DNA from: Pedobacter sp. SL55
Lineage (GTDB): Bacteria; Bacteroidota; Bacteroidia; Sphingobacteriales; Sphingobacteriaceae
Direction: 5' to 3'
DNA length: 64,000 nucleotides
Assembly (NCBI RefSeq): GCF_026625705.1
Contig: NZ_CP113059.1
Coordinates: 1,550,001-1,614,000 of the forward strand
How positions within the stretch are numbered: position 1 is the first letter of the stretch; every line of letters starts with the position of its first letter. A program made the position numbers and the translations under genes. Below the pieces are notes generated by a model, which did not search any database, was not told the DNA's origin, and saw only the letters and a list, made by a program, of their open reading frames with translations. Positions 37,496 to 54,747 of the stretch are shown piece after piece.

Positions 37496-37566
37496 CGCCC
37501 TAACCCCCTAAAGGGGGAATGAGATTGATTAACGCTTAGTCTTTTTAAGCCCCTTTAGGGGTTTGG
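37496..37566. repeat. CCCCTAAAGGGG palindromes overlapping the adaptor gene's stop
   Basis: CCCCCTAAAGGGGG near 37502-37515, and GCCCCTTTAGGGG ending in TTTGGGGTTTT near 37551-37571. The second palindrome supplies the last codons (KTPNP) and stop of the adaptor gene. It belongs to the same loose family as the elements at 15260, 32651 and 46805. Confidence 0.65.
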
Positions 37567-38739
37567 GGTTTTATTCTTAGCTTCAGCAAATACCGAATCA
37601 GCAGATTTTATTTGGGGCTTAATTTTGTCGCCATCTTTTAATGAGGCAAAACCCTCTAGTACAATTTTATCGCCGTTTTTTAAACCTTTAGTTACTACAT
37701 AGTAGTTTCCTTTAGTTAGTTCCATAATTTCGATATTTGTGCTTTTTACACCGGCGGTGTCATTTACCAAGTAAACAAATTTCTTCCCTTGAATATCGGT
37801 AGTAGATTTTTGAGGAACCAACAAAGCGTTTTCTACATTTTGCGGGATGCGGATAGAAGCACTAGAACCAGAGCGCAATAAACCATTCGGGTTTGGAAAC
37901 GTAGCCCTTAAACTAGAAGCCCCTGTTTGCGCATTAATTTGTCCGCTAATGGTTTCGATTTTGCCTTTTTCAGGATAGATAGATCCATCTGCCAAAACTA
38001 ACGTTACATTAGGAATTTGCTTGATTTTATCTTCTAGCGTGCGGCCTTTAGTGTTTCTCGCAATTTCTAACAACTGTTTTTCATTTAAGGAGAAATAAGC
38101 GTAAACTTTACTAATGCTAGAAACCGTAGTTAAGGGTTGCTGGCTAGTGCTGCTAACCAAAGCACCTACTTTGTAAGGTATGGTGCCAATTACGCCATTA
38201 ACTGGGCTAGTAACTACCGTGTAACCTAAGTTCACTTTTGCATTTGCTAAAGCCGCTTTAGCCTGCGCTAAGTTTGCTTTCTTGCTGGTAAGTGTTAGTG
38301 CTGCATTTTCTAGATCGAATTTGCTGATGATGTCTTTATCTACCAGTGGCTTGGTTTTGTTGTACTGTAATTGTGCCGCACTTACCTCAGCCTCTGCACT
38401 TCTAATTGCAGCTTCTGCCGTTCTAACTTCTTGCTGATATTGAGGTGCATTGATAGCAAATAACGGTTGGCCTTGTTTTACGGTTGCGCCTTCGTCTACG
38501 TAAATTTTCTCGATAAAACCATCAATTTTTGGTCTGATGTCTACATTTTGCTGACCTTCTAGCGTAGCTGGATAATCGCTTTCTAATGTGGTATTAAAAG
38601 CATCTATTTGTACCACAGGATAGTTTTGAGGACCAGCGGGAGGGCCACCAGCTTTTGGATCTTTGCCGCCCGAACTGCATGACGCTATAAATAGGGCCGC
38701 GATACCCGTTAGCGATAAATAAATTGAGGAATGTTTCAT
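37555..38739 (-). CDS. RND efflux periplasmic adaptor (AcrA-like lipoprotein)
   Basis: Membrane-fusion protein of 394 residues, with start chosen at ATG 38739 (MKHSSIYLSLTGIAALFIASC). This gives a lipoprotein signal with Cys21. Adaptor motifs: LEGQQNVDIRPKIDGFIEKIYVDEGATVKQGQPLFAI (lipoyl/barrel-sandwich half), a coiled hairpin at about 80-150, TVVTSPVNGVIGTIPYKVGALV, then beta-barrel and membrane-proximal domains. In-frame upstream residues from TTG 38781 are part of a conserved RNA leader, not credible protein. The C-terminal tail KTPNP and stop come from a palindromic repeat. Confidence 0.93.
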   Translation of the reverse strand: MKHSSIYLSLTGIAALFIASCSSGGKDPKAGGPPAGPQNYPVVQIDAFNTTLESDYPATLEGQQNVDIRPKIDGFIEKIYVDEGATVKQGQPLFAINAPQYQQEVRTAEAAIRSAEAEVSAAQLQYNKTKPLVDKDIISKFDLENAALTLTSKKANLAQAKAALANAKVNLGYTVVTSPVNGVIGTIPYKVGALVSSTSQQPLTTVSSISKVYAYFSLNEKQLLEIARNTKGRTLEDKIKQIPNVTLVLADGSIYPEKGKIETISGQINAQTGASSLRATFPNPNGLLRSGSSASIRIPQNVENALLVPQKSTTDIQGKKFVYLVNDTAGVKSTNIEIMELTKGNYYVVTKGLKNGDKIVLEGFASLKDGDKIKPQIKSADSVFAEAKNKTPNP

Positions 38740-38749
38740 TGAAGTATTC

Positions 38750-38846
38750 ATTTGCATTTTTAATGGTAATGAAGCTATCAAGAGTTTTTAAAATACTTTT
38801 TATGAAGGTAACTCTTGATGGGTTCATTATATGTATGTATTGTGTT
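38750..38846 (-). promoter_or_regulatory. Conserved structured leader of the efflux adaptor gene, shared with degQ
   Basis: Minus-strand blocks: ACACAATACATACA at the far end, a hairpin of arms AACTCTTGAT (38810-38819) and ATCAAGAGTT (38777-38786), then AGCTTCATTACC (38765-38776) and an A-rich stretch ending CAAAT. The same order occurs at 54505-54580 before degQ. The hairpin arms differ in sequence but still pair. Confidence 0.55.
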
Positions 38847-43652: not shown

Positions 43653-43787
43653 ATGTTTTATTGGCACCACGCTATTTAGACCACAGCGAGTGGAGAAATC
43701 TAACTTCATAATTTGAAGCGCAATTTCTCTGCTGCTATTTTCCGCCAGTCCCACTTTTCGCTGCAATCTTTTTTGCAATCCGTCTGT

Positions 43788-43873
43788 CGTCATTTCGAAC
43801 GTATGTGAGAAATCTGTTCGATAGAATTACTCAACTCACAGATTTCTCAGTCGTTCCTCCTTTCGAAATGACG
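43788..43873. repeat. Long-hairpin intergenic repeat (CGTCATTTCGAA type)
   Basis: CGTCATTTCGAA (43788-43799) and TTCGAAATGACG (43862-43873) are exact complements. Inner arms GAGAAATCTGT (43807-43817) and ACAGATTTCTC (43838-43848) also match. This is a form of palindromic repeat I know from many Bacteroidota gaps. Confidence 0.75.
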
Positions 43874-44086
43874 TACAAAAAAGTATTTCCGCTTCAATCC
43901 GGGCTATTTCACAATGCCAATGCACCTACACTCAATTCTTGGTTCCTTTGCTGCCCGAAGTATCTGGATTTCGTTACGCTCAACCTTCTTGCTGATTCTG
44001 CTTTAATTTTCCGACTTCCCGACTACACCACAAACTGACTTGCAAAAACTTTTCGCTTTTACCTTTTTACTTTCTACATTTAACCC

Positions 44087-52955: not shown

Positions 52956-54500
52956 TTAAAACTGAATAACAAATGTTCCTCCGTTTGGATTAAAACCCGA
53001 AATGGTAGTTCTGCCATCTCGCGAGGTAGCCAAGGCTTTCTCTAATTCTGCAGCACTGTTAACCTCTTTTCCATTTATTTTGTAAACGATAGAGCCTTTG
53101 CCAATGCCATAATAATCAAATTCTTCGCCAGGAACTACATTGGTTACCACCAAGCCAGATTTAATACCTAACTTCTCTTTTTGAGTTGCCGAAGCAGGTG
53201 CAAAAGTTGCGCCCAACTTATTCAAACTTACCCCAGTAGCTTTTTCGCTTTCTTTTTTAGCTAACGCTACAGAACTCTCGCCTTTTAACGTTACGCTGAT
53301 GTTTTTAGTAGAACCATCTGCTTTTAACACAGTTAAAGCCACTTTATCGCCAGGGCTCATACGGCCAATGCGCTCCTGCAAATCAGGCGAATCGTAAATG
53401 GCAACGCCTTCTACTTTTTTAATGATATCGCCTTCTTTGATACCAGCTGCGGCTGCCGCTCCGCCTGGCAATACCTCTCTAACGTATAAACCAGAATTAT
53501 CTTTGATTTTTAATTGTTCGGCAACATCGGCATCTAATGCGGTAAAGGTTACGCCAATATAACCGCGTTTAACCGAACCATATTTTTTAAAGTCTTCTAA
53601 AATCTTTTTAGCTAAATTTACCGGAATAGCGAAACCGTAACCTTCGTTTCTACCACTTTGTGAAGCAATAGCCGCATTGATACCCACCAACTCGCCAGCA
53701 GCATTAACCAATGCACCACCACTGTTACCAGGGTTAATTGCTGCATCTGTTTGGATGAAAGATTCGATAGAATTGTTGGCTCTTGAAGGCTGTTTGCCAG
53801 TTCTTCTGAACTCATCATATTCTTCTTCGGTCATCATGCCATTATCGCGGTTTAAAATACCAATGTTACGAGCCTTGGCACTTACAATACCTGCAGTAAC
53901 TGTAGTCTGTAAATCTAGCGGGAAACCTACTGCCAATACCCACTCTCCAACTTGTACATTGTCTGAGTTACCCATTTTCACAAAAGGTAGGCCATCTACA
54001 TCAACCTTAATTAAAGCCAAATCTGTGTTTGGGTCTTTGCCAATTACTGTTGCAGTTGCTTTACGTCTGTTAGCCAAAATCACTTCAATTTTATCTGCTT
54101 TGTCTACTACGTGGTTATTGGTTACAATATAACCATCTGACGTTAAAATTACGCCAGAACCCGAAGCTGCCTGTGGTTGGCGTTGTACACGGCCGCCGCC
54201 ACCAAAACCAAAGAATTGCTCAAACATGTCTTCCATACCGCCGCCGCCTCGGCTAGATTTACCTTGGTAGGTAGTTTTAATGTGAACCACTGCTGGCGAA
54301 ACCGCAGCTGCAGCCTGTACAAAATCAGGTGCTCCGGCAGAAGATACACCACTTACGTTACTTGCAAACATGGTCTTTTGTCTATCTGCTAACGTAAAGT
54401 TGTCGTTGGGGCGCTCTATCAACTTATAGGCGCCAATTGCAGCAGCTCCACCAATAAATGAGGCAGCAAGTACAATTAATCCTATTTTTTTCATTTCCAT
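52956..54500 (-). CDS. degQ: Periplasmic serine protease DegQ/HtrA (Do family)
   Basis: Trypsin-like protease and chaperone that removes misfolded envelope proteins, 514 residues. I start it at ATG 54500 (MEMKKIGLIVLAASFIGGAAAIGA, signal/anchor). The catalytic triad is in IVTNNHVVDKAD (His), NTDLALIKVD (Asp) and NPGNSGGALV (Ser). Two PDZ domains follow (SGLYVREVLPGGAAAAAGIKEGD; SGLVVTNVVPGEEFDYYGI). The in-frame residues upstream (from TTG 54536) fall in a conserved leader shared with the efflux adaptor gene and are probably untranslated. Confidence 0.95.
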   Translation of the reverse strand: MEMKKIGLIVLAASFIGGAAAIGAYKLIERPNDNFTLADRQKTMFASNVSGVSSAGAPDFVQAAAAVSPAVVHIKTTYQGKSSRGGGGMEDMFEQFFGFGGGGRVQRQPQAASGSGVILTSDGYIVTNNHVVDKADKIEVILANRRKATATVIGKDPNTDLALIKVDVDGLPFVKMGNSDNVQVGEWVLAVGFPLDLQTTVTAGIVSAKARNIGILNRDNGMMTEEEYDEFRRTGKQPSRANNSIESFIQTDAAINPGNSGGALVNAAGELVGINAAIASQSGRNEGYGFAIPVNLAKKILEDFKKYGSVKRGYIGVTFTALDADVAEQLKIKDNSGLYVREVLPGGAAAAAGIKEGDIIKKVEGVAIYDSPDLQERIGRMSPGDKVALTVLKADGSTKNISVTLKGESSVALAKKESEKATGVSLNKLGATFAPASATQKEKLGIKSGLVVTNVVPGEEFDYYGIGKGSIVYKINGKEVNSAAELEKALATSRDGRTTISGFNPNGGTFVIQF

Positions 54501-54504
54501 AATT

Positions 54505-54580
54505 ATTTGTTTTTTAAAAGGTAATGAAGCTGCCAAGAATTAAAATTCGTTGACGGTTGCATTTCCATTGTATGTTGTGT
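54505..54580 (-). promoter_or_regulatory. Conserved structured leader of degQ, shared with the efflux adaptor
   Basis: Minus-strand blocks: ACACAACATACA (54569-54580), a hairpin pairing CAACGAATT (54544-54552) with AATTCTTG (54534-54541) with one bulge, then AGCTTCATTACC (54520-54531), and A-rich sequence ending CAAAT (54505-54509). The order and spacing at the 3' side match the leader at 38750-38846. Confidence 0.55.
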
Positions 54581-54747
54581 TTTACGTTTACTTTTTTTAC
54601 TAATGAATTATCCAAATTTAATACCATATCAACGATATTTGTATCAGAATAACGTCTAAATACGTGTTAAAAAATGTTAAAAGCCAACCTTACAGCTTAT
54701 TGATGTTTTTTATTGTATAATTGTTACAAGCTTAGCTACTATAAAAA

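Follow-up and report, generated by a model that had tools for sequence, protein, structure and literature searches.

Dispersed hairpin units before ATGAA(A) start codons in Pedobacter and its relatives: a probable family of non-autonomous miniature mobile elements

Why should two genes of Pedobacter sp. SL55, lying some 16 kb apart and encoding an RND efflux adaptor and a degQ-like protease, be preceded by leaders of the same design? Both lie on the minus strand of the window, that is, the whole stretch of 64,000 nucleotides analyzed here, to which coordinates refer unless otherwise indicated. Pfam assigns the adaptor (37555-38739) to HlyD_D23 and the protease (52956-54500) to Trypsin_2 plus PDZ. 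The resemblance pointed out in the preliminary description holds, since AGCTTCATTACC, a hairpin, and an A-rich tail are found at both loci. The only exact copies of AGCTTCATTACC in the window are these two (38765-38776 and 54520-54531), on the strand of the downstream genes. Read on that strand, the adaptor leader is ATGAACCC-ATCAAGAGTT...AACTCTTGAT-AGCTTCATTACC-A-rich tail and the degQ leader is ATGCAACC-GTCAACGAATT..AATTCTTGGC-AGCTTCATTACC-A-rich tail, the common layout being ATG(A/C)A-CC, hairpin, AGCTTCATTACC, A-rich tail, and start codon.

At the adaptor gene the whole putative inserted unit extends from ATGAAC to the base before the ATG (38740-38827, minus strand), and the covariance-model match covers 38754-38831. 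Its outer 5′ arm, ATGAA (38823-38827), is presumably the native start codon of the adaptor. The inner stem is predicted to form between ATCAAGAGTT (38810-38819), which includes covarying positions, and AACTCTTGAT (38777-38786), and TTCAT within AGCTTCATTACC (38769-38773) is complementary to ATGAA and constitutes the outer 3′ arm. The A-rich tail (38740-38764) is apparently supplied by the element and now serves as the initiation region of the adaptor, with its seemingly regenerated ATGAAA start. The degQ copy (54501-54562, minus strand; covariance-model match 54509-54566) begins with the 5′ arm ATGCA, contains the predicted inner hairpin GTCAACGAATT/AATTCTTGGC (54532-54554), and has a tail running to the base before the ATG. 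Both hairpins can pair, as had been proposed, with unequal support: the adaptor hairpin has an MFE of −15.7 kcal/mol (z −3.1), whereas that of degQ (−9.2, z −1.4) is equaled by 20 of 200 shuffles and its fold alone is unexceptional. A block of ACACAA plus ATACA, also included in the original comparison, is indeed present in both leaders and falls outside the shared feature. Both words occur in only 3 of 169 left flanks (adaptor, degQ, and the unrelated L201), and at the adaptor the block belongs to the native leader, left of the inserted unit; it was thus rejected as a component of the motif. An Rfam scan of the window gives no family reaching its gathering score at the element. Elsewhere in the window, at 43743-43909 (minus strand), Flavo-1 RNA scores just above gathering (44 vs 42 bits).

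Two copies had been described; the genome contains about 22. AGCTTCATTACC occurs exactly six times, compared with once for the reversed pattern, and the other four exact copies are located before an aspartokinase gene, as a tandem pair before gapA, and before the gene for a small membrane protein. Covariance models R1 and R2 return 36 and 42 matches, respectively, at E up to 10 in the 4.44 Mb genome, the weaker of which include obvious chance ones. For R2, 22 matches lie below E 0.01, and all directly precede an ORF in the same orientation except for the upstream members of two tandem pairs. Among 20 downstream proteins scanned, Pfam identifies aspartokinase, GAPDH, DPP IV, two RND/HlyD adaptors, an OMP, RNase Y, degQ, rhodanese, SDR, FKBP, DUF2807, SusD, a dicarboxylate symporter, ribosomal protein L36, and DUF4466, five of the 20 being without a clear family. 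The second RND/HlyD adaptor (L070; own genome 4007247-4007300) carries the element, though its gene starts with ATGAGA.

The aspartokinase copy, in the thr operon, is found downstream of a threonine-attenuator-like leader and terminator. That leader (MIFNSSIITTIIITGG plus terminator) occupies about 1290-1500 of locus L001 (own genome 718923-719133), where Rfam Thr_leader remains below threshold (29.6 vs 55 bits). The consensus for Bacteroidetes promoters is TAnnTTTG; TAAATTTG at 54613-54620 (minus strand), upstream of the degQ element, fits it and may be the degQ promoter box. Within 350 nt, TATTAANTTTG is found in 29 of 30 degQ leaders and TAAATTTG in 26 of 30. With the thr copy 3′ of a terminator and the degQ copy 3′ of a promoter-like box, the sequences indicate that the element probably lies in the transcribed leader. 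An RNA leader, a promoter class, and a dispersed repeat had been offered as options; the last is borne out, together with this probable place in a transcript.

The unit may be written as ATGAAA-CC-(stem-loop)-AGC-TTCAT-TACC-(A-rich tail), with a length of about 45-90 bp. ATGAA pairs with TTCAT as the outer stem, ACC and AGC form an internal loop, and the inner stem, whose letters vary, measures 3 to about 11 bp. The suspicion that the hairpin arms differ through compensatory change proves well founded, for the stem covaries. In the least biased test, matches were chosen by their flanks alone (ATGAAACC...AGCTTCATTACC) from one genome per species (84,980 species), which yielded 50 stretches. For the 33 Bacteroidota matches that end in an A-rich tail, pairing is seen at 92 of 99 inner positions, compared with a mean of 55 and a maximum of 74 over 2000 shuffles, and the addition of four tail-less Bacteroidota matches gives 94/107; the 13 matches from other phyla pair at about the chance rate (14/37). 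Alignments A3 and A4, which were fitted to the structure, agree on covariation, with 0 of 500 shuffles reaching the score; in the first alignment the loops were trimmed by hand, and the covariance models were built from sequences leaning to intact copies. The outer stem is nearly fixed across copies. Rare changes that keep its pairing are ATAAA/TTTAT, GTGAA/TTCAT, ATGGA/TTCAT, ATGGA/TCTAT, and CTGAA/TTCAG, and those that break one pair are ATGCA/TTCAT (the degQ copy and L197), ATAAA/TTCAT (L080), and ATGAA/TCCAT (L123).

Tandem arrays reach four units and fit repeated insertion or recombination at ATGAAA. In L217 (182-458) four units of about 65 bp precede one gene, and L221, from another genome and with the same protein start, has a single match. 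A second hairpin module, ACCGAG...CGAGCTCATTAAT plus an A-rich spacer, follows the element in L172, L174, L182, L204, L211, and L344, and related stretches are present in L026, L080, and L123. The Parapedobacter loci L012, L056, and L059 display a larger nested form in which outer ATGAAACCTGC...GCAGGTTCCAT surrounds the element, again directly before ATGA.

A search of relatives, as originally recommended, reveals a dispersed family. The element is found in 33 of the 36 genomes searched of the genus (0-32 copies per genome) and in 122/201 genomes and 16/25 genera of the Sphingobacteriaceae, a count for which 28 candidates per genome were scored; it is found in 0 of the 23 genomes searched from other families. 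In a class-wide sample (E up to 0.001) 6 of 295 genomes are positive, five of them from the own family. True-looking matches with names are mostly from Pedobacter, Mucilaginibacter, Parapedobacter, and Sphingobacterium. Well-formed copies outside the family occur in Flavobacterium anhuiense (L051) and in G503, of another family (L365); these are possibly horizontal transfers or mis-binned contigs. The relatives fetched for closer study were 99 of the best 100 non-own places listed by score (one overlapped another), and counts based on this top of a score-ordered list lean to intact copies. Phage or plasmid carriage was considered and rejected: the L330 element (121 bases) has no match among phages (50,697 records) or plasmids (72,556 records), and viral contigs gave four chance-like matches to one pattern and none to a second.

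The element strongly favors start codons. In 123 of 181 matches an ORF of at least 50 codons has its ATG 9-14 nt past the end of the model, the remainder being mostly upstream tandem members, small genes, and copies with the second module before the gene. Random scatter, including positions inside or after genes, had been named as the pattern that would count against a shared leader, and it is mostly not what is found. In only 6 of the 99 fetched regions does the following ATGAAA open no ORF of at least 30 codons; among these six, the distance from the element to an ORF start is 49-63 nt in L146, L152, and L154 and 147 nt in L169, and in L145 and L163 no ORF follows on the same strand. By comparison, 520 kb of related DNA, with gene starts taken from plain ORF calls, has 149 intergenic and 155 start-like ATGAAA sites when gene interiors are left aside (6/99 vs 149/304, p about 1e-20). 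In L321 (G096) the following ATGAAA runs into an apparent terminator stem rather than a gene.

The downstream genes do not uphold the common envelope-stress control that had been thought plausible. In other genomes, 87 downstream proteins represent 155 Pfam families, the commonest occurring in eight, and no shared pathway was found among them. A hydrophobic N-terminus (cut-off 1.8; gene starts again from plain ORF calls) is exhibited by 90 of 121 element genes, 26 of 40 element-free ATGAAA-start genes, and 51 of 168 other genes. The first two proportions are alike (p = 0.31), which indicates that the envelope link is that of Met-Lys signal peptides: the exported excess resembles that of element-free genes with the same start, and an envelope-stress regulon was rejected.

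Presence and absence of the unit were compared for seven genes in five sister genomes, the genes being chosen by the investigator among the loci. Each has leaders of two kinds, empty ones and ones with a 79-90 bp unit that begins ATGAAACC (in one gene ATGGAACC) and ends directly before the gene's ATGAAA, so that sister species differ precisely at this site. Clear cases are L131 (empty L338, filled L337), L155 (empty L343, filled L340), L162 (empty L349, filled L358), L199 (empty L353/L354, filled L342), and L209 (empty L363, filled L341). In six of the seven genes ATGAA(A) flanks the unit on both sides and is single in the empty sites; the L220 site is not clean. From 29 pairs, four were set aside because the supposedly empty loci carry the element (L344 three times, L352 once), and of the 25 that remain, 24 have an empty leader nearer to the left than to the right flank, the exception being L335 vs L362. 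As to polarity, the sequences of the seven genes would be compatible with either insertion or precise loss between ATGAAA repeats.

The adaptor unit itself has no counterpart in the orthologous leaders of G017 and G033. These agree with its left flank at 19 and 18 of 25 positions and with its right flank, the A-rich tail, at 16 and 13, and the G017 leader ...CATATAATGAA matches what stands to the left of the ATGAA arm. Among 29 other adaptor orthologs listed, two more distant ones (L291, L295) possess element-like hairpins. At degQ the element looks older: the orthologous leaders of the genus hold intact copies alongside decayed ones, tandem pairs, and a 3′ remnant, and in some a decayed copy is all there is; compensatory change is seen in ATTAAAAGC/GCTTTTAAT of L277 vs ATCAAAAGC/GCTTTTGAT of L280. 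Persistence at degQ, together with some compensation in orthologous stems, would also agree with a retained function. Direct repeats of at least 11 nt that include ATGAA occur in 27 of 169 copies, 14 of these in loci with two or more matches. The longer-repeat copies outside such loci do not fit a plain 6-bp duplication, and at 27/169 a longer target duplication was rejected as a general rule.

The best reading of these data, to which we assign a probability of roughly 80%, is a family of non-autonomous miniature mobile elements that would enter ATGAA(A) sites, mainly those of start codons, in a single orientation. Insertion would leave the native leader and the native ATGAA on the left; to the right, the intact gene would start from the second ATGAA(A), preceded by an A-rich initiation region that the element provides. 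In the mRNA the 3′ arm UUCAU may fold over the old AUGAA and keep ribosomes off. The UUCAU/AUGAA complementarity, or recognition of a single-stranded hairpin, could also guide insertion to ATGAA, the reaction being presumably carried out by some host or mobile enzyme.

The two flanks and their predicted folding bear on this scheme. In the element tail, A stands at −12, −6, and −3 before the gene start at frequencies of 84%, 80%, and 25%; in the left flank, before the element's ATG, the values are 66%, 62%, and 42%, a start-codon-like profile as expected if that ATG was the native start. In F. johnsoniae, A at −3, −6, −12, and −13 favors initiation (PMC6847099); the region supplied by the element is without the preference at −3, a positive determinant in that species. 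Among 137 copies folded (44 of 181 matches were skipped), 100 show pairing of the element's AUG with the 3′ arm at a probability above 0.5, and 17 show the gene's AUG paired with that arm, too few to retain a switch acting on the gene's start codon. When the inner part is shuffled, a control that in some copies may have extended into the 3′ arm, overall pairing of the displaced AUG falls from 0.89 to 0.70 and that of the gene's AUG rises from 0.66 to 0.78, which suggests masking of the old start codon. Against this, the gene's own AUG has a predicted pairing of 0.66 with the hairpin and 0.54 without it. By these models the 3′ arm UUCAU probably masks the old AUGAA. It is possible, though doubtful, that we are dealing with a new class of mobile element, in which the UUCAU arm picks the AUGAA target and then silences the displaced start while a fresh one lies downstream. 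The arm reads CTCAT, as a re-targeted guide would, in three of five copies before ATGAG genes (few cases, noted post hoc, with L081 judged by eye) and in 0 of 163 rows with ATGAA next, five of which have an unresolved arm; with 0/150 ATGAA rows the post hoc test gives p about 2e-5.

Strong pair covariation would equally be expected of a trans-regulated RNA leader governing a regulon (a riboswitch, thermosensor, or protein-binding hairpin) and dispersed by gene recruitment. The fixed 9-14 nt spacing, the thr operon copy in a probably transcribed leader, and persistence with some compensation at degQ and gapA agree with such a leader. We nevertheless regard it as unlikely, given that the genes have no common pathway, the ATGAAA start accounts for their envelope bias, sister species differ in which genes carry the element, and copies without a downstream gene exist. 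Moreover, no Rfam family reaches gathering score on the window element or at five own-genome loci, the sole overlap with the element at the latter being a sub-threshold, opposite-strand Atu_C9 on L001. The structured, covarying 5′ leader is reminiscent of Rfam cis-regulatory leaders, including Bacteroidetes motifs described in PMC2864571; unlike these, the element has no shared gene function, varies in presence between sister species, and matches no family at gathering score on the copies scanned. A short conserved leader peptide (MKPS...) or attenuator ORF is suggested by the ATG AAA CCN that opens most copies. This is very improbable and was rejected, because the reading frame of AGCTTCATTACC is not conserved, several copies stop after 4-5 codons (by eye), and some have GTG, ATA, or CTG in place of ATG, several still with the stem. 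Least credible is a class of promoters or transcription-factor operators; short conserved blocks upstream of genes would suit it, but stem letters that vary yet stay paired are not needed for double-stranded recognition, and the thr operon block is downstream of a terminator.

If mobility is accepted, the nearest known systems can be considered. MITEs, the bacterial miniature transposable elements, are likewise under 100 bp, non-coding, polymorphic in presence, and bounded by a 5-6 bp direct repeat, here a target-site duplication, ATGAA(A), that brackets the unit in six of the seven genes. They differ in that the element is without terminal inverted repeats (filled sites end CC... / ...A-rich tail by inspection), contains an internal covarying hairpin, and repeats a hexamer that is a start codon. 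Integron attC sites keep their structure while the stem sequence varies, form tandem units, and have a core site; the element shares the first two properties and has no cassette gene, and no such core site was seen in it. Movement in trans by a Y1 (HUH) transposase, as for a REP/REPIN or IS200/IS605-type single-strand element, would explain the small imperfect hairpin and the conserved foot complementary to the flanking target, and single-strand recognition would account for the covarying stems. We consider it improbable: of the 19 genomes of the genus that have at least 10 copies, 9 gave no Y1_Tnp match, copy number is uncorrelated with this family (rho −0.04, n = 36 genomes), and the target is duplicated. 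REP/REPIN sequences associated with RAYT are also short, dispersed, non-autonomous palindromes outside genes with variable stems; the element departs from them in its position at start codons, its single orientation, its lack of a link with Y1 transposases, and its conserved foot ATGAA-ACC instead of a GTAG-type tetranucleotide at the 5′ hairpin foot. In IS200/IS605 ends, with their guide-target pairing (PMC6006769), a short stretch by the hairpin foot is likewise complementary to the flanking target, whereas the guide-like stretch of the element is 3′ of the hairpin and target letters stand at both ends. IS110 transposase was not found in the own genome and eight more of the 19 copy-rich genomes and shows no correlation with copy number. 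RAYT/REP and IS110 were both rejected as mobilizers, and no mobilizing enzyme was found among those examined (Y1, IS110).

No such element was found in the titles and abstracts of the literature searched, and to that extent the family of miniature mobile elements proposed here is new. Insertion at a start codon should destroy the gene; this family appears to avert the damage through the repeated start and the new initiation region, which is how it can precede housekeeping genes such as those for GAPDH, aspartokinase, RNase Y, and ribosomal protein L36. It will mislead searches for riboswitches and regulons. The element represents a testable case of structure-guided target choice, and within a bacterial family it alters the translation leaders of as many as about thirty genes in a genome.
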